27,791 nt of DNA from a virus: positions 1-27,791 of the IMG/VR virus record IMGVR_UViG_3300022918_000230; one strand, given 5' to 3'. The translations under genes were made by a program, and so were the position numbers. The notes below the pieces were generated by a model that ran no database searches, was not told where the DNA came from, and saw only the letters and a program-made list of their open reading frames with translations. Every line of letters starts with the position of its first letter. Positions within the stretch are counted from its first letter, which is position 1. Positions 1,264 through 19,944 of the stretch are shown here, piece after piece.

Positions 1264-1295
1264 TGGTGGAGCCGGGGGGATTTGAACCCGCATCC
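1264..1295 (-). other. attL core: 3' end of a tmRNA (ssrA)-like gene
   Basis: Read on the minus strand, the segment ends in TTCAAATCCCCCCGGCTCCACCA, i.e. a T-loop, a T-stem strand, an acceptor strand CGGCTCC, discriminator A and CCA. No matching 5' acceptor strand (GGGGCCG-type) or body follows to the right, so it is a 3' fragment only. The T-stem 5' strand is GCGGG against CCCCC, a C-C mismatch that suggests the identity block ends there, giving a core of about 1264-1289. The acceptor matches Pseudomonas tmRNA as I recall it. Orientation predicts the intact RNA gene at the other prophage end, outside this window. A tRNA gene is the alternative source. Confidence 0.6.
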
Positions 1296-1346
1296 AACCC
1301 TTATAAGCCGTGGCTTTTAGCGGTAGGGCTGCCATTTTGCTGTCAT

Positions 1347-2336
1347 TTACGCGTCATGAAAAATATCTTGAGCCTTGCCGGTCGCCACGTAGTCCGCCAA
1401 ACCCTGAAGCCGACGGTAGTAGGCAAGGACGATTTTTATAGCAGACAGCGGATCCCCGCTGGCGAGCTCGAGAATGTGTGAAGCGCTGTCGTCTAATCCG
1501 AACGCCTTGCACGTATCCTCCAGTAATTCGACAAGCTCGGTGATGTCTTCGTCTGACAGATCAATGTCGGTATCTGATTTGCTTAGCCAGCCCAAATTTT
1601 GGAGATGGCCATAAGCTTTTTTGTAAGCCTCTTGAGCAGGACTATCGTCATCATTAATCCCGTTCACTAACTCTCGTATGGAGTCGGCAACGTCACCGTT
1701 CATATAGAACTTAATTTCGCCTGGAGACGCGTAATCAATTTTTCTGATAGCAGCTCTATCTTCGTTTGGAATGTTTTTATAAAGCTCTTTGAAAAAATTT
1801 ACTGAGCTAAAGCCGCCTCTCCAAGGATGTTTATGGAACAAAGAGTTGATCTTGTTTGTGGCGGCTTGGCCCGTTGCACCAAGAAGCGCAAATCCAAGGG
1901 AATAACAATCTTGTACCAGATCAGAAAATTTCCTTAAATCGCTTATTTCCCACTGACCATCGATGTCTACAACTTTGAAATCACTGTTCAAGCTTTCCTC
2001 AGCATGCCCTGGTATAAACATGCCAGGTTCTGGCAACGCATCGTGCGGGAGGGTTTCTGTGCTTTTCGTTTTAAACTCCTCGCCTACAGTGCCCCACACC
2101 TCTCCGAGCTCATACTTGCCCTTGTGAAGCTTAGTGACAGCATAATGCACGTCAATTTTCTCGGCATATAGCTGCTTGAGATGCTCAGTCTTTATTCTTG
2201 AAAAATAAAACTTGAATGATGTTTCACCATCATCGTAGTTAACACCTAAATACTTATCGCCGTTTTTTGCCTTCGCGAGCGCGATCAGCGGAACATCATA
2301 GCTAAGTAATATTTTCTCTACCGTTAGCTTAGCCAT
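1347..2336 (-). CDS. Accessory protein between int and attL, DUF6575-like (tentative)
   Basis: The 329-aa product starts MAKLTVEKILLSYDVPLIAL. The N-terminal 100 residues look like a small alpha/beta domain; the C-terminal half (about 215-320) is helical and acidic. The opening resembles what I remember as DUF6575, but this is recall without alignment and no function is known to me. The start at 2336 overlaps the upstream gene by 8 bases, so the two are probably translated together from the promoter at 2765-2793. The gene is clearly more AT-rich than the integrase beside it, a sign of separate acquisition. The location between integrase and att is a usual site for lysogenic conversion or phage-defence genes. 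Function is inferred only from place. Confidence 0.7.
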   Translation of the reverse strand: MAKLTVEKILLSYDVPLIALAKAKNGDKYLGVNYDDGETSFKFYFSRIKTEHLKQLYAEKIDVHYAVTKLHKGKYELGEVWGTVGEEFKTKSTETLPHDALPEPGMFIPGHAEESLNSDFKVVDIDGQWEISDLRKFSDLVQDCYSLGFALLGATGQAATNKINSLFHKHPWRGGFSSVNFFKELYKNIPNEDRAAIRKIDYASPGEIKFYMNGDVADSIRELVNGINDDDSPAQEAYKKAYGHLQNLGWLSKSDTDIDLSDEDITELVELLEDTCKAFGLDDSASHILELASGDPLSAIKIVLAYYRRLQGLADYVATGKAQDIFHDA

Positions 2337-2764: not shown

Positions 2765-2793
2765 ATTCTCGATTACGACATGCAATGCGTCAA
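2765..2793 (-). promoter_or_regulatory. Sigma-70 promoter of the int-attL cassette
   Basis: On the minus strand a -35 box TTGACG (2788-2793) is followed by a 17-base spacer and a -10 box GAGAAT (2765-2770), 5/6 and 4/6 matches to consensus. The predicted start is near 2758, about 30 bases before the ATG at 2727. This would let the cassette be expressed in the lysogen independently of PL. Confidence 0.6.
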
Positions 2794-2811
2794 AGTTTTA
2801 ATTTTGACGCA
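2786..2811. promoter_or_regulatory. Palindrome over the cassette -35 and the int stop codon
   Basis: GCGTCAAA (2787-2794) and TTTGACGC (2803-2810) form a perfect inverted repeat with an 8-base AT-rich centre, extended to 9 bp by T2786/A2811. It covers the -35 box of the cassette promoter and the integrase stop codon. No T-run follows, so it is more like a protein-binding site than an intrinsic terminator. The binding protein is unknown. Confidence 0.45.
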
Positions 2812-3995
2812 AGGGTATCTTCTTGTTGTTTATCGGTTTTTATATCTCCGCGCTGTAAAAATGCCAGCTCTGCTCTTTGTCCAGCACCAATATCTGCTGC
2901 GGGCATCCATCGTCCATAGACTCGCGCAATCATCGTCCAGTCGGTATGCCCCATCTGTTTGGCTACCCACATAGGGTGCTCACCGGCGGAAAGCATCATC
3001 GAAGCGTAGGTGTGTCGGGTCTGGTAAGGCCGCCGATACCTGACGCCTGCTTTCTTCATGGCAGGTACCCACATAGTTTTGCGTATTGGCCCGTCGCCTG
3101 CCCATCGCTCCAACGTCCTGGGATTTTGAAATACTTCAGCGTCTGCCAGGAACGTATGAGCCTTCTGGGCCGTTAATGCTTCCATGGCTGGCCTGAGCAG
3201 CTTCACGCTTCGCCGGCCCGCGGATGTCTTTGTAGTCTCGGCCGTACCCTTCGCTGCCTGGGTCATAGCGCGGGTCACCATTACCTCTTCACGTAGCCAG
3301 TCGATATCGCCCCAGTCCAGGGCGACCAGCTCGCTGGTTCGCAGGCCAGTCCAAAGGGCGAATTGCATCATGTTGCGCGCCTGGCCGGTAAGGGCGCCCA
3401 GCACGGCCTGTTGTTCCTCCGGGCTAAAAGGGTCTACGTCGTCTTCCTTGGGAGGCGCTTCTTTCCGGGTATAGGTCCAGCCGGCCATAGGGTTAAGGTC
3501 GATTAATTCCTCTTCCGCAGCGTCATTCAGCGCAGAGCGAAGACAGCTCTGAATATTGCTAAGCGTTTTATTGCTCACTAGCAGCGTATCGAGCCAGTCA
3601 CGGATAGCCTTTCGCTTGAGATCGACCACCATGGTTTCGCCCAGGGCAGGGATGAGACGCAGCTCCACGAGCTTTCGATAGCCATCGAACGTGCTGCTAG
3701 CCACATGCTTGCGTTTGGCAGCCAGCCACCTGGTTAGGAAACCGTGCACAGTTTCCCGCGACGCCTCCGGTGCGAACTTATCTGCCCGGGCAGAGCCAGG
3801 GAACGTAACGGCATAATCGAACGTGCCAATGGATATCGCGTGCTCGATCGCCGCCTTGTGCTGTTCGGCCTTCTTTAGATTAGTGGGGGAGGGCTTGAGT
3901 GTGATGCGCTCGCGGCACCGGACGCCCCGATACATGAACGTGATTTCGATACTCGTATCGGAGACCGCCCGAACTCCCCGCCCGCCTCTACCCAT
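2790..3995 (-). CDS. int: Tyrosine-family phage integrase
   Basis: The 401-aa protein catalyses site-specific recombination between phage and host att sites. Residues 1-65 resemble a DUF3596-type arm-site-binding domain (GVRAVSDTSIEI, YRGVRCRERI), 80-175 a SAM-like core-binding domain, and 190-365 the catalytic domain. The active-site set is R219 (TGLRTSE), K256 (TKTSAGRR), R327 with Y324 in place of the usual His of HxxR, H350 (MGHTDW) and Y360 (VYGRW). The start at 3995 fits the conserved MGRGGRG opening of this family and makes the gene overlap xis by 121 bases. It lies about 1.5 kb from the putative attL, separated by the accessory cassette. Confidence 0.95.
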   Translation of the reverse strand: MGRGGRGVRAVSDTSIEITFMYRGVRCRERITLKPSPTNLKKAEQHKAAIEHAISIGTFDYAVTFPGSARADKFAPEASRETVHGFLTRWLAAKRKHVASSTFDGYRKLVELRLIPALGETMVVDLKRKAIRDWLDTLLVSNKTLSNIQSCLRSALNDAAEEELIDLNPMAGWTYTRKEAPPKEDDVDPFSPEEQQAVLGALTGQARNMMQFALWTGLRTSELVALDWGDIDWLREEVMVTRAMTQAAKGTAETTKTSAGRRSVKLLRPAMEALTAQKAHTFLADAEVFQNPRTLERWAGDGPIRKTMWVPAMKKAGVRYRRPYQTRHTYASMMLSAGEHPMWVAKQMGHTDWTMIARVYGRWMPAADIGAGQRAELAFLQRGDIKTDKQQEDTLASKLKL

Positions 3996-4150
3996 GATTC
4001 ATATCCTTCAACGTCAATAAGCGTCCGGCCGTCCGGCGCTCTATTCCATATCTGTCCGAGCCGCCAGATTCCGTCACGGATCTTTGAGCGGATCGCGTCC
4101 TCCGTATAGCCAGACTCGCTGGCAAATTTCCTGATGGTCACGTAACGCAT
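3875..4150 (-). CDS. xis: Excisionase
   Basis: The 91-aa product starts MRYVTIRKFASESGYTEDAIRSKIRDGIW, a MerR-like winged-helix motif typical of small phage excisionases, followed by DGRTLIDVEGYESWVE. It should bind beside att and direct the integrase towards excision. A GTG lies immediately before the chosen ATG; AGGAG is 9 bases from the GTG and 12 from the ATG, so either may be used. The serine-rich C-terminal tail is read in a different frame from the start of int, with a 121-base overlap. The CTGAC-N2-GTCAG sites lie directly upstream. Confidence 0.85.
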   Translation of the reverse strand: MRYVTIRKFASESGYTEDAIRSKIRDGIWRLGQIWNRAPDGRTLIDVEGYESWVEAGGEFGRSPIRVSKSRSCIGASGAASASHSSPPPLI

Positions 4151-4165
4151 CACTTCACCGCACTC

Positions 4166-4209
4166 CTGACTCGTCAGGTTCTGATTGATCTTCGAAACTG
4201 ACGAGTCAG
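4166..4209. promoter_or_regulatory. Paired palindromic sites upstream of xis
   Basis: CTGACTCGTCAG (4166-4177) and CTGACGAGTCAG (4198-4209) are each nearly palindromic (CTGAC-N2-GTCAG) and are perfect reverse complements of each other. Their centres are 32 bp apart, about three helical turns. They abut the xis ribosome site, so they could be an operator pair or, in RNA, a 12-bp stem next to the Shine-Dalgarno sequence. Confidence 0.5.
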
Positions 4210-4263
4210 TTCCGATCTGCTCTGCGCCACGATTTCGCTGTGGGTGAGTCGTGGCGCGTACGG

Positions 4264-4467
4264 TCAGGGATCAGCATCTGCTTCGCCAGATTCAACCACT
4301 GCACGCAGCTTCAGCGCGATGCCGCAGCGGCGGGCTAGAGCGTTCAATTCCCCGACGGTGGTTTCGGGGGACTGCAACGCCTGCCCGAACTGAATTAGTC
4401 GATCGCCCAGCTTTTCCAGATCGCTGCGCAAGCTGATACGAGCGCCGGCGGATGTGTGAACGGTCAT
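4264..4467 (-). CDS. Small phage protein, unknown
   Basis: A 67-aa product (MTVHTSAGARISLRSDLEKLG) with a predominantly helical pattern and a central LIQFGQALQSPETTVGELNALARRCG segment. No cysteine pair, membrane segment or known motif is seen. It begins 2 bases after the csrA stop codon with GAGG about 10 bases upstream, so it is in the PL operon. I do not recognise it. Confidence 0.6.
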   Translation of the reverse strand: MTVHTSAGARISLRSDLEKLGDRLIQFGQALQSPETTVGELNALARRCGIALKLRAVVESGEADADP

Positions 4468-4469
4468 AG

Positions 4470-4658
4470 TTAACAGACCTCGGGACGCTGGCGTGGGTTG
4501 GCCAGTTTGCGAAGGTGGATTTCTTCGCGGTCTACCGGCACACCAACGGGTGCTGAGACGCCAATGCGAACCTGCATACCCTGAACGCCCAACACGGTCA
4601 CGGTGATGTCGTCGTTGATGCGGATGGTTTCGCCTACACGGCGAGTCAAAATGAGCAT
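4470..4658 (-). CDS. csrA: Phage-borne CsrA/RsmA-type translational regulator
   Basis: The 62-aa product [17 protein letters not shown]... matches the CsrA family along its length. CsrA dimers bind GGA motifs in mRNA leaders and alter translation or stability. The RNA-contacting residues L4, R6, R7 and R44 (PVDREEIHL) are all present, as is the [14 protein letters not shown] core. The start at 4658 is fixed by AAGGAG five bases upstream. The tail after residue 52 (NPRQRPEVC) differs from host RsmA. It is the second gene of the PL operon, so it should be made early after infection or induction, possibly acting on phage leaders or host Rsm targets. Confidence 0.92.
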
Positions 4659-4797
4659 ATGAACTCCTTGTCTACTTTCTTGAGGGCGAACAAAGGCCCG
4701 CCACTTTGTTGGCAATCGCAAAAATTTGAATTGGTTATCGCGTCAGATCGAGCCTGAACACTGGGCTACCCAACTGCACGGATGGGTACACCGCTGC

Positions 4798-5103
4798 TCA
4801 CGCGATAAAGACGCCTTCATGCTGGTTGTCCTGCTGGTGGTCTGGCGGGGTCGGCAGCATCCCGGTTGAGAAGCTGATCAGGCCCATCGCGAAAGCCTTG
4901 GCGACCAATGCTGCGCGCTTTGTACAGCCCAGCTTTGTCGATGCTGCCAGCAAGCGCTTGTCCACACTGTCAGGTGCCAGGCCCAGTTCGCGGGCGGCTT
5001 CTTTGCTTGTCATGCCTGCTGCGACTGCCAGCAGGCATTGAAGCTCTCTTGGAGCCACGCCCTTGCCGAGTTGGCCGGTCAGTCCCGCGAAGGTAATAGT
5101 CAT
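4798..5103 (-). CDS. LuxR-type HTH transcription factor without sensor domain
   Basis: The 101-aa product contains the four-helix LuxR C-terminal DNA-binding domain at about residues 16-77: APRELQCLLAVAAGMTSKEAARELGLAPDSVDKRLLAASTKLG. There is no N-terminal receiver or ligand-binding domain, so activity is probably set by concentration alone. A longer start at 5139 exists but has a poor ribosome site; the ATG at 5103 has GGAG upstream. It is the first gene downstream of PL, the place of N in lambda, and could regulate the int arm or host genes. Target is unknown. Confidence 0.75.
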   Translation of the reverse strand: MTITFAGLTGQLGKGVAPRELQCLLAVAAGMTSKEAARELGLAPDSVDKRLLAASTKLGCTKRAALVAKAFAMGLISFSTGMLPTPPDHQQDNQHEGVFIA

Positions 5104-10481: not shown

Positions 10482-11851
10482 GTCGCGACCTGTTCAACAT
10501 CGAGGCCGAGCACGGCCTGCTGGGCGCAATCTTCATCGAGCCGACGCTGCTTGACGAGATATCCAGCAAGGTGGATATCTCCGACTTCTACGAAATCGAG
10601 AATGCCGCGCTGTTCAGGGCCATCCTGGACTGTCACGCCGCTGGCGACCCGGTCGATGTCGTGATGGTTAGCGAGCACCACCAGTACATGCCTGATGGCA
10701 GTAGCATGCTGGCGTATGCCGCACAGGTCCACGCAGGCGCTCAGGGAACCTCGAGCTGGAAGACATACGCACGGGTTATCCGCGAGCGTGCCGTTCTGCG
10801 CAAGGTTGTCGAGACGGCGACGTCGATCAGCCAGTCAGCCAATGATGATTTGCCGGTGGCGGAGATCATCGCGCGCGGGCAGCAGGCAATGGCAGACTTG
10901 CGCGACCTCGACGACGGCGAGCCTGATTACCATCAGGTGAAAGACATCCTGCCCTGGGTGGTAGATACGATCGATGCCAAGTTCAATAAGACGGCACCCA
11001 AGGGTCTGGGCACTGGCCTGCCCGATCTGGACAAGATGATCAGAGGGCTACGCCCTGGGAACATGGTGGTCGTCGCTGGCCTTCCAGCCTCCGGCAAAAC
11101 CATCCTCGGCGTGCAGATTGCCCAGCACGTCACCACTCGTTTGGGCGGTTCCGGTCTGGTGTTCTCGCTGGAGATGACCAAGGAAGAGTTGGTGACGCGC
11201 AACATCGCGTCACTTGGCTCCGTGGATCTGACCCGGCTGGACGAGGGCGAGAGCATTCAGGACGAGGACTGGCCGCGCATCACCAGTGCCGTCAACCAGC
11301 TCAACAGCGCCCGACTCTATGTGTGCGATCAGGCAGGCATGACCGTTGCCCGTATCCGCTCAATTGCACGCCAGTGCCAACGCCGTGAAGGGTTGGACGT
11401 GATCGTGGTCGACTACATCACCCTGATCAACGGGGAGGGCGGGCACAACCGGACGCTTGAGGTCGGCAAGATTTCCACGGCGCTGAAGAACTTGGCCAAG
11501 GAGCTCAAGGTGCCGGTGATCGTGCTGGCGCAGCTCAACCGCGGGCCAACCAATCGCCCCGATAAGAAACCACGGCCCAGCGACATACGCGACAGCGGCC
11601 AGATCGAGCAGGACGCCGATGTCGTCATCTTGGTGCACCGCGATGGCGACAGCGAAGAGGGCGCCAATGGTGTCACCCAACTTATCGTTGGCAAATGCCG
11701 TCACGGCAAGCCGGGCGATTGTCTTGTCCAGGCCCAAGGGCAATTCGTGCGTTTCGTGCCATTTGGCGGCAAGCCACCCTCAGACGAACAGGTCGAGATG
11801 GGCCGCGTGGTGAAGTTCACTGGCCGCGCCCGGGGCCCAGTCGATGAATGA
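10478..11851 (+). CDS. dnaB: DnaB-type replicative helicase
   Basis: The 457-aa protein has the DnaB N-terminal domain (about 5-105, EAEHGLLGAIFIEPTLLDEI), a linker, and a RecA-like motor domain. Walker A is G201-LPASGK-T208, Walker B is VIVVDYI near 310, and the H4-type segment LAQLNRGP follows near 348. It should form the hexameric ring that unwinds phage DNA 5'->3'. The length matches the family. Having both loader and helicase makes the phage largely independent of host DnaB and DnaC. Confidence 0.93.
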   Translation: MSRDLFNIEAEHGLLGAIFIEPTLLDEISSKVDISDFYEIENAALFRAILDCHAAGDPVDVVMVSEHHQYMPDGSSMLAYAAQVHAGAQGTSSWKTYARVIRERAVLRKVVETATSISQSANDDLPVAEIIARGQQAMADLRDLDDGEPDYHQVKDILPWVVDTIDAKFNKTAPKGLGTGLPDLDKMIRGLRPGNMVVVAGLPASGKTILGVQIAQHVTTRLGGSGLVFSLEMTKEELVTRNIASLGSVDLTRLDEGESIQDEDWPRITSAVNQLNSARLYVCDQAGMTVARIRSIARQCQRREGLDVIVVDYITLINGEGGHNRTLEVGKISTALKNLAKELKVPVIVLAQLNRGPTNRPDKKPRPSDIRDSGQIEQDADVVILVHRDGDSEEGANGVTQLIVGKCRHGKPGDCLVQAQGQFVRFVPFGGKPPSDEQVEMGRVVKFTGRARGPVDE

Positions 11852-13199
11852 CCTGGTGAAAACGCTTACGGTCATCATGACTGACGCCGAAATCCGCCGG
11901 CATGCGGACCGCTCCCATGTCCGTGCTCTGCGCGATGCTCGCCACCCAGCACTGCACTTTCGTTACTCCACCGTCGACCGCGCCCGAGGGTCATGGCATG
12001 TGGTGGTGCGCGGCAAGTGGGGCAAGGCCGGTAACTATCCCGGTATCAACGCCAAGCTGATGCAGTCCACGCTCCCAGCGATCCTCGCGCGCCGCTCGGC
12101 TGATCCCGCTGCGGCCTCGACCACCAGCAGCTGGACGACTGTCGGCGACGTGCTGGCCTGGTACACCGACAGGATGACGCGCGACCGTGGCCTGTCTGCC
12201 AAGCGCAAGGCCAGCGCCCAGTCAGCACTCCGTTGCCACCTGGTGCCAAAGCTTCAGCATGTGGAGTTGGCCAGCCTCAACCGAGCAGCGCTCGACAAGC
12301 TGCTGATGTGGCCGATGCAGGAAAAATATGAGCTGTCGTTTGTGCGTTCGGTCTATGGCGTTCTGGCCGCAGCATTCCGGCAAGCGACACGCCTGGCGCT
12401 CGTGGGAACGAACCCCATGGCCGACCTCAAGTACAGCGACTTTGTCCGGACGCGCATCAAGCCCAAACCCGCGCGGTTGCGGGGCGATGATCTGCCGGCG
12501 CTGCTGGTGGACCTGCAAGAGCGAATTGATCGCGCACCGTTGGAGTCAATGCTGGCGCTGCTGATGCTTTGCCACGGTACTCGCCTCGGGGAAACCCGGC
12601 TGGCCCGCTGGAAAAACGTCAACGTAAAAACGGGTCAATGGTTCATTCCGGCGCCAGATACCAAGACCAAGGCAGAGCACATGCTGCCGCTGACCCGCCA
12701 AGCCTGCGCCCTGATTGAACGTTACCGGGCCATGCAACTGGCGACCGGTTATCAAGGGCCTTTCCTGTTCCCTGGCCGATCTGGTGATGCTATCAGCGCG
12801 ACCAAGGCCAGCACCTTGTTTGCCGGGATGGCTGGGCGTGAATGGTCGAGCCATGACCTGCGCAAGGTCGCCCGCACTGCTTGGGCCGATCTGGGCGTGG
12901 ACTACATGGTGGGCGAGATGCTGCTCAACCATGCGATGAAAGATCTCGACGCCACCTACATCCACACCACCGCCGAAGGGCTGAAACGCCAAGCCTTGGA
13001 ATCGTGGCACGACCACCTCGACAAGCTCGGACTTGCTCCACTGCATAACGGGACATGTGCGGGACGCGAATCGATGACCGAAAGCGAGCAAGCCAATAAA
13101 ACCGTGGCCTGTAGCGACAATCTGCATCCATCCCAAGGGAGGAGGTTAATAGACAAAACGACCGCCAACCAGACCCAGCCAGGAGACGGCAATGAGTAG
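11844..13199 (+). CDS. Second tyrosine recombinase, in the replication operon
   Basis: The 451-aa protein carries a full tyrosine-recombinase active site: R247 (CHGTRLGE), K274 or K276 (DTKTKAEH), H337-x2-R340 (SHDLRKVART), H363 (LLNHAMKD) and Y372 (ATYIHT). The N-terminal 1-85 resembles an arm-binding region, 97-200 a core-binding domain. It overlaps dnaB by 8 bases; an alternative start is Met12 (MTDAEIRRH). The C-terminal 45 residues are a Glu/Asn/Thr-rich tail. It is unrelated in sequence to the integrase at 2790-3995 beyond the active site. Placed after the helicase, it may resolve replication products or serve another site; att function is unproven. Confidence 0.85.
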   Translation: MNDLVKTLTVIMTDAEIRRHADRSHVRALRDARHPALHFRYSTVDRARGSWHVVVRGKWGKAGNYPGINAKLMQSTLPAILARRSADPAAASTTSSWTTVGDVLAWYTDRMTRDRGLSAKRKASAQSALRCHLVPKLQHVELASLNRAALDKLLMWPMQEKYELSFVRSVYGVLAAAFRQATRLALVGTNPMADLKYSDFVRTRIKPKPARLRGDDLPALLVDLQERIDRAPLESMLALLMLCHGTRLGETRLARWKNVNVKTGQWFIPAPDTKTKAEHMLPLTRQACALIERYRAMQLATGYQGPFLFPGRSGDAISATKASTLFAGMAGREWSSHDLRKVARTAWADLGVDYMVGEMLLNHAMKDLDATYIHTTAEGLKRQALESWHDHLDKLGLAPLHNGTCAGRESMTESEQANKTVACSDNLHPSQGRRLIDKTTANQTQPGDGNE

Positions 13200-17370: not shown

Positions 17371-17959
17371 GGTTCCGTCCATCATCTTGCCGTAGGGGCT
17401 CTGAAGATAGCACGGAGCCACTAGCCGCCACTGAGCGGTTTTTTTATATCTGAATTTTGCGCAAGCGGCAGACACAGCAAGGGTTCACGTTTTGAATCAA
17501 GGCGAAAGCCCCGGCTCCTTGCTCTCCGGGCGCAGATAGGCGTTTGGGTTGCGACTACGCGGCCGGCGTCGAACACCCCGTTGCATCCGGGGTATTTATT
17601 CTTTTCAAGTTTGTGTGTGCAGACCACTGCCAGGGTGGGCCTTCGGGCGGGCCTGGACATCGATTCGCCGGTTAGTGCGATGTACAGAAAAACACCGGCA
17701 GCCAGTGTGTCTCAAACCTCGTTTTGCTCCGGGGCGGATCTGGCGGACAGGCGTGGAAAGACACGCATTTTATGCAGGTGATCAAAGCCCGGCACGGTCG
17801 TAGCGTTAGGCCGGTCAAAGCGCAGGGGTAACAGTCAGCGTGGGGACTGTAGGGAAACGCCACGACAGCGACCTGAAAGGGTTGCCATCTGCACCCATTT
17901 CAAGCCTCGGCAAATGCCGGGGCTTTCTTGTTTACAGCTCCCCAAAGGGAGGACATCGG
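17371..17959. other. Non-coding stretch of about 590 bases with several hairpins
   Basis: No convincing gene is seen. Visible structure: ACCCCG/CGGGGT hairpin at 17575-17593; GCGTG/CACGC near 17750-17766; ACAGTC/GACTGT near 17831-17850; GGGT/ACCC near 17880-17896; then the terminator at 17902-17930. This could hold a late promoter and an RNA ending at that terminator. No -35/-10 pair could be fixed with confidence. Confidence 0.4.
17902..17930 (+). terminator. Intrinsic terminator before the lysis genes
   Basis: Stem AAGCCTCGGC (17902-17911) / GCCGGGGCTT (17916-17925) with one G-T pair, AAAT loop, then TCTTGTTT. The transcript it ends starts somewhere in the non-coding stretch upstream. Confidence 0.75.
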
Positions 17960-18286
17960 ATGAAGACCATGCCAGAAAAGAATCCTGATTTCTGGGCAGC
18001 GCTGTACCTCTTCATCAGCACGCCGCTATGGCAAGGCGCGATCATGGCTACCACTGTCTCGCTGCTGCGTGTCCTCTACGAAGCCAAGGAAGCGAACAAA
18101 TGGCGGATCGTGCTGGAGGCGCTCATCTGTGGCTCGCTGAGTCTGTCAGCCAGTAGCGTTATCGAATGGATGGCCTGGCCGCCGAGCCTGTCAGTAGCCG
18201 CCGGCGGAACCATTGGCTTCGTCGGAGTGACAGCAATCAGAGAGCTGATCATCAAGTTCCTCGGACGCAAGGCGGACGCACCATGA
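17960..18286 (+). CDS. Lambda-family class I holin
   Basis: The 108-aa product opens MKTMPEKNPDFWAALYLFI, close to lambda S (MKMPEK). Three hydrophobic segments lie near residues 10-35, 50-70 and 72-95, followed by the basic tail IIKFLGRKADAP. It forms inner-membrane holes that time lysis. GGAGG is about 8 bases before the ATG. A second ATG at codon 4 creates a possible dual-start holin/antiholin pair. It overlaps Rz by ATGA; no endolysin gene intervenes. Confidence 0.88.
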   Translation: MKTMPEKNPDFWAALYLFISTPLWQGAIMATTVSLLRVLYEAKEANKWRIVLEALICGSLSLSASSVIEWMAWPPSLSVAAGGTIGFVGVTAIRELIIKFLGRKADAP

Positions 18287-18669
18287 GCGCATTGAAGTCC
18301 TTCGCGCTGGCATGCGTGATTGCCCTCGTCGGCGTTCTGCTGGTGGGTATTCAGCAGTACCGGGTGCTCGCCCTCGAAGGCAAAGTCAGCATTGAAACCA
18401 AGGCCAAGACTGACGCCGTGGCAGCCAACGAGGCGAGCCAGGCGACGATCACCACGTTACAGGCCGAAGCCAGACGTAACGCCGCGTACAGCGCGGACCT
18501 GGTCAAGCGCATCAAGGCCAGCGAAGACAAAGCCAAACAGGCGAGGAAGAACTTTGAAGATCTCAAGCGCAACAGCAAGCCTGTTCGTGATTGGGCTGCT
18601 CAGCCTTTGCCTGACGGCCTGCGCAGCAAAGCCAGCGGTAGTAACAAAGACAAGCGCCCTAAGAATTGA
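18283..18669 (+). CDS. Rz: Rz-type inner-membrane spanin
   Basis: The 128-aa product has an N-terminal membrane anchor (about 5-23, FALACVIALVGVLLVG), a long coiled coil (30-105) and the PVRDWAAQPLPDGLR segment typical of Rz-like proteins. Together with Rz1 it spans the periplasm and fuses the membranes at the end of lysis. It starts at the ATG overlapping the holin stop. The last 116 bases are shared, in another frame, with Rz1. Confidence 0.88.
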   Translation: MSALKSFALACVIALVGVLLVGIQQYRVLALEGKVSIETKAKTDAVAANEASQATITTLQAEARRNAAYSADLVKRIKASEDKAKQARKNFEDLKRNSKPVRDWAAQPLPDGLRSKASGSNKDKRPKN

Positions 18670-18826
18670 GGCACCGGAACTGGTGCCGTGTGAGCGGGTA
18701 GACGCTGATGAAGCTGACCTGCGAGACAACGGCGATGTCTGGGCTTTGAAGGATCAGGCCATCAAGCTGCTCGATACGTGCGCCGATCAGGTGGATGCGC
18801 AGATCGTTCGCAGCCAGAGCAAATAG
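18554..18826 (+). CDS. Rz1: Rz1-type outer-membrane lipoprotein spanin
   Basis: Embedded out of frame in Rz. The 90-aa product from a TTG start (GAGG about 8 bases upstream) reads MKISSATASLFVIGLLSLCLTAC, a lipoprotein signal with lipobox LTAC and lipidated C23. The mature part (68 residues) is longer than lambda Rz1 and less Pro-rich, with four further charged clusters and two cysteines. The frame is open further upstream, but only this start yields a signal peptide at the N-terminus. Confidence 0.82.
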   Translation: MKISSATASLFVIGLLSLCLTACAAKPAVVTKTSALRIEAPELVPCERVDADEADLRDNGDVWALKDQAIKLLDTCADQVDAQIVRSQSK

Positions 18827-18835
18827 GGATTCAAT

Positions 18836-18936
18836 GGGGCCGTAGCTCAGCCGGTTAGAGCATACCCCTGCTGCACAGATCCAGTGTGCAGCAGACGAGG
18901 TGCGGGACAGAGGTTCGAATCCTCCGGCTCCACCCA
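18836..18936 (+). tRNA. tRNA-Ala-like RNA with abnormal anticodon arm
   Basis: Acceptor strands GGGGCCG (18836-18842) and CGGCTCC (18925-18931) pair with a G3-U70 wobble and are followed by A73, the alanine identity elements. The D-stem is GCTC/GAGC (18845-18848/18858-18861), and the T-arm is GAGG-TTCGAAT-CCTC (18910-18924), only 4 bp. In place of a normal anticodon arm there is a perfect 9-bp stem (18868-18876/18886-18894) with loop AGATCCAGT and an extra GACGAGGTGCGGGACA segment. The 3' end reads ACCCA rather than ACCA. It may be non-decoding. Confidence 0.6.
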
Positions 18937-19032
18937 TTTCGCGCCACGATTACAGAAGCGCCGTTTCGTGGCGCTAGGTGATCACCTGAAAGATTTGAAT
19001 GCCAAGCATGGCGCTATGGAACAGCGATCACA

Positions 19033-19485
19033 TTAGAACAAGCCAGGCAGTGAGAGGAACGCGCGGACTACAAATGCGATGATCACACCTGATCCAACGC
19101 CTACCAGAGTGTATTTGGCCACTGGCGATGACTTCTCTTTTAGATTTTGAAGAGTCCATGCGAGGTTCGCTATAGCTAGGGCAACCGCACTTCCAATCAC
19201 AAAGCAACCAATTGCCCCTTGAGCTCCGTCGGGCAGATAGTCGATAGCCTTATACAGGCTTGGTAAGCCAAGCAGCATCGCGATGCAGATACCCATGTTC
19301 CTTAGGCTGTCAAAGATAGTCTTGGTGTCGGCTTGTTTCTCTTCCCCAAAAAATTTCCGCATACGCGATTGTTTTGCTATGGGCGGTGCCGTCTGGGCTG
19401 GTGCCGTAACTATGGGATCGGCCGGTGCTCCCGCAAATGATGAGGCGGCAGCTTGGGCGGTGTCATGGGGTTCATTCTGCGACAT
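19033..19485 (-). CDS. Membrane protein on the opposite strand, unknown
   Basis: The 150-aa product starts MSQNEPHDTAQAAASS, has an Ala/Pro-rich cytoplasmic N-terminus to about residue 50, then three hydrophobic segments (about 66-80, 93-112, 125-145). GGAAGAG lies 7 bases before the ATG at 19485; a much longer frame upstream is rejected. It is the only leftward gene between lysis and packaging genes, so it is probably an independently expressed lysogenic gene. Confidence 0.72.
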   Translation of the reverse strand: MSQNEPHDTAQAAASSFAGAPADPIVTAPAQTAPPIAKQSRMRKFFGEEKQADTKTIFDSLRNMGICIAMLLGLPSLYKAIDYLPDGAQGAIGCFVIGSAVALAIANLAWTLQNLKEKSSPVAKYTLVGVGSGVIIAFVVRAFLSLPGLF

Positions 19486-19623
19486 AAGATGTCTCTTCCG
19501 GGCTGGTTGGTCATGCAGTATCACTGTGCCACCTTTGCCCGCACAACTTCTTTGGCTGAAGAGCTGCTTAAGACTCCCAAATCCAAAACCGGCAACCCGC
19601 CACCATTCAAGTGGTGATTCAAT

Positions 19624-19944
19624 ATGACTACGGATATGCGCTCGTTCACGTTCAAGTCTCGACACTTCGACACGACTAAGCGAATCACCGGCAGAGCGCT
19701 GCAGAAGCGCCGCCTCAGCGTCTGGACCAAAGACCCTTGCTGCGCCATATGCCGACGGCTCACTGACTACCCGTCAGGCTTCGAACTCGATCACAAGGTG
19801 CCACTGTTCAAGGACGGTGATGACACCGAGGCGAACTGCCAGGTGCTCTGCAACGGGGTCAACGGATGCCACGAGAAGAAGACCGCGCAGGACATGGGGT
19901 TCCGCTACAAGCAGACCATCGGGCCTGATGGCTATCCCGTCTAA
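19624..19944 (+). CDS. HNH endonuclease next to the terminase
   Basis: The 106-aa protein has the HNH core ELDHKVPLFKDGDDTEANCQ with D56-H57, N71 and H83, and zinc cysteines C40, C43, C76 and C82. HNH proteins beside HK97-type terminases nick DNA and support cos cleavage and packaging. The ribosome site is weak. The 138 bases between it and the divergent membrane gene should contain both promoters, but none stands out. Confidence 0.9.
   Translation: MTTDMRSFTFKSRHFDTTKRITGRALQKRRLSVWTKDPCCAICRRLTDYPSGFELDHKVPLFKDGDDTEANCQVLCNGVNGCHEKKTAQDMGFRYKQTIGPDGYPV

Follow-up and report, generated by a model that had tools for sequence, protein, structure and literature searches.

The DNA analyzed here is a 27,791-nucleotide stretch of a viral record, IMGVR_UViG_3300022918_000230 (hereafter, the window). 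The window is a Pseudomonas-type prophage that encodes an integrase (2790-3995, minus strand), a CI-like repressor, replication proteins, lysis proteins, an HNH endonuclease, a terminase, a portal protein and a capsid protein. Integration has occurred in the tmRNA gene (ssrA), at its 3′ end (1264-1450, minus strand), and the attL sequence is identical to the tmRNA 3′ ends of Pseudomonas-type genomes. An ORF for a host-side Mrr-type restriction endonuclease occupies positions 1-912. The RNA known as Proteo-phage-1 (RF03044, 79.6 bits) lies upstream of the holin gene at 17624-17703 (plus strand), and is also present in another sequence, L003, at 2457-2535. The holin gene (17840-18286) and the Rz/Rz1 genes (18166-18826) are followed by a tRNA-like RNA placed between the lysis genes and the packaging genes, upstream of the terminase. 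A minus-strand ORF in the same interval (19033-19665), for which PHROG and Pfam give no match and which probably encodes a membrane segment, is a candidate accessory gene. The features relevant to the RNA are listed below, along with their state in the homologous RNA of a second contig, L070.

1264-1288, minus strand: prophage attL, formed by the 3′ end of the host tmRNA gene (ssrA); reads GGTTCAAATCCCCCCGGCTCCACCA
18320-18826, plus strand: ORF with an Rz1-like spanin in its 3′ part (PHROG 456); its stop codon is 9 nt before the RNA
18836-18842, plus strand: 5′ strand of the acceptor stem, GGGGCCG, read from the sequence; pairs with CGGCUCC at 18925-18931 to form 7 bp, including G3-U70
18845-18861, plus strand: D-arm, GCTC-AGCCGGTTA-GAGC, with G18 and G19, read from the sequence; stem unchanged in L070
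18863-18903, plus strand: domain of 41 nt, also in L070, that takes the place of the 17-nt anticodon arm and so adds 24 nt, from alignments
18868-18894, plus strand: 10-bp hairpin, CTGCTGCACA-GATCCAG-TGTGCAGCAG, from the fold; one compensatory and two one-sided changes in L070, with zero broken pairs
18878-18884, plus strand: 7-nt apical loop, GATCCAG (GATCCTG in L070), with no U at the U33 position, from alignment and fold
18895-18903, plus strand: unpaired 3′ linker, ACGAGGTGC (ACGCGATGC in L070), from alignment and fold
18904-18908, plus strand: variable loop, GGGAC (GGGTC in L070), equivalent to standard tRNA positions 44-48 in the register that we infer
18910-18924, plus strand: T-arm, GAGG-TTCGAAT-CCTC, 4 bp (5 bp in L070), read from the sequence
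18925-18934, plus strand: 3′ strand of the acceptor stem, CGGCTCC, then A73 and CC, read from the sequence
18941-18974, plus strand: hairpin GCGCCACGA...TCGTGGCGC (GCGCCAC...GTGGCGC), which directly follows Rz1 in several relatives that lack the RNA

The body of the RNA, from G1 to the discriminator A73, spans 97 nt at 18836-18932 on the plus strand, and therefore stops short of position 18936, where a preliminary description of this DNA had placed its end. The Rfam tRNA model (RF00005) matches this interval with a score of 36 bits versus a gathering score of 29, whereas ARAGORN in its default mode reports zero tRNAs in the window. No plausible coding ORF covers the element, and its minimum-energy fold is better than those of shuffled sequences by 2.8 standard deviations (z = -2.8). 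In common with canonical tRNAs, the RNA has a 7-bp acceptor stem, a D-arm (GCUC-AGCCGGUUA-GAGC) with a 4-bp stem and a standard D-loop, a T-arm (GAGG-UUCGAAU-CCUC) whose loop conforms to UUCRANU, and the nucleotides U8, A14, G15-C48 and G18-G19, with U8-A9 standing between the acceptor and the D-arm. The window T-stem is one pair short. Position A73 (18932) is followed by CCC, so the CCA end is only partly encoded. With only two positions left free, phage tRNA-Arg(CCU) genes match the RNA over the last 22 nt of its variable loop and T-arm. The G3-U70 pair and A73, the normal D-arm and T-loop, and the 4-bp T-stem that had been described previously can all be read directly from the window copy, and the Rfam match lends further support to the two arms.

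What sets this RNA apart from a canonical tRNA is its middle. A 5-bp anticodon stem with a 7-nt loop carrying U33 and an anticodon is absent from the canonical place, and the arm spans 41 rather than 17 nt. Between A26 and the variable loop, these 41 nt are made up of UACCC, a perfect hairpin and an unpaired 3′ linker. The hairpin strands, written as RNA, are CUGCUGCACA and UGUGCAGCAG, which form 10 bp closed by the 7-nt loop GAUCCAG. The earlier view of a tRNA-like RNA with an aberrant anticodon arm is borne out by the Rfam match and the replacement domain, including the hairpin in place of the arm and the lack of U33 in the apical loop, although the hairpin is 10 bp long and not 9. A candidate base stem, CCC/GGG (18865-18867 with 18904-18906), was entered in the structural model but has a pair probability of 0 in the thermodynamic ensemble. 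Alternative base pairs at 30:65 and 31:64, with a C-G to U-A change, fit about equally well. Because a canonical anticodon arm is absent, the window RNA is unlikely to decode.

Relatives of the RNA were sought among 2.9 million viral contigs with a pattern consisting of a normal D-arm, a spacer of 40-68 nt and a normal T-arm, which matched 74 stretches. The sole homologue found among these contigs is carried by L070 (IMGVR_UViG_3300023083_000106) at positions 1291-1388 on the minus strand, and is 82% identical to the window RNA. The covariance-model search for relatives that had been proposed at the outset retrieves the same RNA: A model built from the window sequence alone scores L070 at 86.9 bits, whereas every other match, mostly ordinary tRNAs, scores at most 41 bits. 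The L070 RNA sits just after the Rz1 stop codon, the same place as in the window. The lysis regions of the two phages are 72% identical, and their homology stops at the 3′ end of the RNA. Besides the phage integrase, a second tyrosine-recombinase-like protein is encoded between the replication and lysis genes, at 11844-13199 (plus strand) in the window and at 3647-4936 (minus strand) in L070.

The two RNAs differ by 18 substitutions and one indel, yet all 28 of the proposed base pairs are kept. Six pairs have changed, two of them on both sides: acceptor pair 4:69, which is G-C in the window and A-U in L070, and one pair of the hairpin. When 18 substitutions were placed at random in simulations, all pairs survived in 0.015% of trials (p = 0.00015), and when the same columns were given random letters, all pairs survived in 2% (p = 0.02). 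Sliding the 3′ partners by 1-3 columns reduces pairing from 100% to 56% or less. This covariation comes from a single comparison of two sequences, and a control in which columns were shuffled is uninformative when there are just two rows (136 of 500 shuffles perform equally well). Preservation as a structure in a related phage, which had been set beforehand as the test that could refute the preliminary description, is what the L070 homologue displays.

Conservation is not confined to paired positions. The T-arm sequence is identical in the two RNAs, and the unpaired parts of the new arm are also similar, with 6/7 loop and 7/9 linker nucleotides identical. The conserved stretch runs on from the linker into the variable loop (AGACGNGNTGCGGG). 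In contrast, L070 has a G-C pair at 3:70, C73 as its discriminator and a 5-bp T-stem. Judging from this alignment, the conserved features are the determinants of the L-shape, the hairpin, its GAUCCNG loop and the 3′ linker. We conclude from these sequence comparisons that the element is a real RNA gene, conserved and unusual.

The distribution of the RNA is narrow. About 80 prophages have the same lysis cassette, but the element is present only in the window and L070. The region right after Rz1 varies widely among these relatives and carries differing extra genes. Because the hairpin that adjoins Rz1 in relatives follows the RNA in the window (18941-18974), the RNA is a discrete insertion of ∼110 nt. 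This hairpin recurs in several Pseudomonas-type prophages with a conserved stem and a variable loop. BLAST searches with the element gave zero matches in phages and only D-arm fragments in plasmids. A core pattern produced four chance matches, with no surrounding tRNA, in 85,000 bacterial and archaeal genomes, and a looser version produced eight chance matches besides L070 in viral contigs. The matches to a variable-loop/T-arm pattern were L070 and two ordinary phage tRNA-Arg genes. For one genus, which the tmRNA ends and the lysis module suggest is Pseudomonas, a pattern search through 398 genomes gave no match. A covariance-model search of the same genomes was likewise empty, but is weak, with 10 candidates scored per genome and no positive control.

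Several explanations for such an RNA were weighed, beginning with those in which it is, or once was, an ordinary tRNA. A tRNA gene acquired by the phage whose anticodon arm has degraded would account for the weak Rfam score, the base lost from the window T-stem and the rare distribution. However, a decaying gene is not expected to retain 28 of 28 pairs through 18 substitutions, with double compensatory changes in both the acceptor and the hairpin, nor to be better conserved than the adjoining Rz1 stretch (82% versus 75% identity), and we therefore regard decay as unlikely. It is more doubtful still that the RNA is a genuine tRNA with a short intron or insert of ∼24 nt in its anticodon loop. 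When introns are allowed, ARAGORN does report a tRNA-Ser(GCU) in the window and a tRNA-Arg(GCG) in L070; both arms exceed the normal length by 24 nt, the usual C-U would open the loop, and other phage genes (L088, L092 and L112) have perfect anticodon stems around expanded loops. The two ARAGORN models nevertheless disagree in intron position, in intron length (9 nt in the window, 24 nt in L070) and in anticodon. Moreover, the anticodon stem in the canonical register is poorly paired (3/5 in L070 and, depending on register, 2-4/5 in the window), and it is the 10-bp hairpin that is conserved instead. Bacteria are not known to have splicing machinery for such introns. The intron model was rejected since the versions of it obtained for the two homologues are incompatible, with different anticodons.

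Two other possibilities draw on the tmRNA gene in which the prophage resides. The window acceptor (GGGGCCG/CGGCUCCACC, with G3-U70 and A73) is identical to that of Pseudomonas-type tmRNA (RF00023), whose 5′ ends read GGGGCCG in 3 of 6 genomes, the other three not having been parsed. An RNA with these nucleotides might be charged by alanyl-tRNA synthetase through G3-U70 and A73, and then compete with host tmRNA or occupy the alanine-charging machinery, EF-Tu or SmpB. The element is not itself a tmRNA, because it has a D-stem (4 bp) and no RF00023 match in the Rfam search; at 97 nt, it also differs from tmRNA in having neither a tag reading frame nor pseudoknots. L070 keeps the fold but does not share the acceptor identity, having a G3-C70 pair and C73, and its terminal integrase has no significant similarity to that of the window. 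The alanine-identity elements and the tmRNA match are thus properties of the window copy only, since they are absent from L070, and the tRNA-like gene is not tied to integration into tmRNA, since the L070 integrase is unrelated. The acceptor shared with tmRNA, as described earlier, therefore holds for the window copy, but the comparison does not support alanine identity or likeness to tmRNA as the purpose of this RNA. It may be that the 3′ strand of the window acceptor arose as a copy of the att core that the phage itself carries. On balance, mimicry of an alanine-accepting tmRNA is improbable. The likeness to the attL core that had been pointed out for the 3′ end is real in the window, where it extends over 23 nt, but is not shared by L070. 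This resemblance, together with the end of L070 homology at the 3′ end of the RNA, might suggest that another integrative element left behind a secondary att site. Yet a second copy of the 3′ segment was not found downstream, the tRNA body is complete and carries compensatory changes, and the post-Rz1 region is variable in all relatives. Such a remnant is very improbable, and the att-site reading was rejected on the absent downstream repeat and the unrelated L070 integrase.

The explanation that we favor, albeit tentatively and at somewhat less than an even chance, is that the element is a non-coding, non-decoding phage tRNA mimic that is processed by RNase P and serves as a decoy or inhibitor of a tRNA-binding host factor. 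Since it has lysis genes on one side and packaging genes on the other, the RNA would most likely be excised from the late transcript by RNase P and tRNA 3′ enzymes. The body is intact in its acceptor, T-arm, elbow nucleotides and G15-C48, which should be enough for RNase P and for 3′ processing, going by what is established about these enzymes. No promoter-like site was found near the element, so the RNA would depend on the late transcript. As a stable mimic, it would be brought by its tRNA body to a tRNA-binding or tRNA-cutting host factor, such as an anticodon-directed defense nuclease, and the altered arm would then block this factor. A blocking role for the new arm, in an RNA situated with accessory genes of the late operon, is favored because the hairpin, loop and linker are also conserved. 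A decoy or sensor role had been suggested at the outset, and either may apply.

A simpler use of the same processing signals is unlikely, but is the closest competitor. The tRNA-like fold might be nothing other than a cut signal for RNase P and 3′ processing that punctuates the late transcript, either to set the lysis mRNA apart from the packaging genes or to shield the 3′ end of that mRNA. The location of the RNA, 9 nt past the Rz1 stop codon and upstream of the terminase, the intact RNase P determinants in the acceptor and T-arm, and the absence of a terminator-like site directly 3′ of the RNA are all consistent with this role. However, punctuation leaves the sequence conservation of the hairpin, loop and linker unexplained, and the ∼80 relatives with the same lysis cassette manage without the RNA.

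Phage tRNAs are known to counter tRNA-cutting defenses, with tRNA-Tyr acting against retron-Eco7 and tRNA-Lys against PrrC (PMC11555353). Like the proposed decoy, these RNAs are phage-encoded, tRNA-shaped and located in or near accessory regions. They differ in having normal anticodon arms, and a counter-defense phage tRNA had to remain decoding-competent to work (PMC11555353), such that the step from a decoding anti-defense tRNA to a non-decoding decoy would be one taken by analogy. Noncanonical tRNAs such as tRNA-Sec, allo-tRNA, tRNA-Pyl and mitochondrial tRNAs also depart from the standard cloverleaf, including by 6-bp anticodon stems, but all decode; none in the review that covers them, which leaves phages unmentioned, has a 10-bp hairpin and a long linker (PMC7609411). 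Our literature searches in an open library returned no description of phage RNAs like the one reported here. The bands C and D RNAs of phage T4 are small stable RNAs from a phage tRNA region that likewise have no known function.

The 74 viral pattern matches include ∼40 distinct genes (in the range L058-L131) with a closed acceptor and an expanded middle, and the element resembles these phage tRNA-like genes; none occur in the 398 Pseudomonas-type genomes. In some of them the anticodon arm, with a UAU anticodon, is normal and the variable arm is long; in others (L088, L092/L101, L095 and L112), an expanded loop is closed by a well-paired anticodon stem. Two types recur at the following positions.

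The clearest case other than the element itself, a conserved tRNA-like gene that has an anticodon loop of ∼31 nt and occurs within phage tRNA arrays of at least seven contigs: L072, 3515-3614; L090, 10365-10465; L099, 2892-2990 (minus strand); L106, 1204-1302; L107, 8950-9048; L114, 7292-7391 (minus strand); L116, 865-963
tRNA-like gene with a perfect anticodon stem and a 27-nt loop containing its own hairpin: L092, 2656-2751 (minus strand); L101, 1114-1209; L146, 3026-3121

A phage-encoded tmRNA gene is present in 6 of the 7 contigs listed for the ∼31-nt-loop gene, with none in L090 within its stretch. The L146 copy of the 27-nt-loop gene is upstream of a Pseudomonas-type holin, and a home-made scan indicated possible larger tRNA-like elements (∼130 nt) upstream of the holin in L149 and L155. 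It is conceivable, though rather doubtful, that these genes belong to an unrecognized phage class that retains the tRNA body as a module for delivery and processing but carries dedicated binding or inhibitory domains instead of an anticodon arm, with the element described here as one family.

Genes of this kind are overlooked by tRNA finders in their default mode, as in the window, and a simple pattern suggests that tens of comparable genes exist in phage genomes. Provided that the RNA is expressed and takes no part in decoding, it would be a viral case of a tRNA body uncoupled from decoding, and would offer a small, deletable and testable candidate for the means by which phages disarm tRNA-directed host factors.
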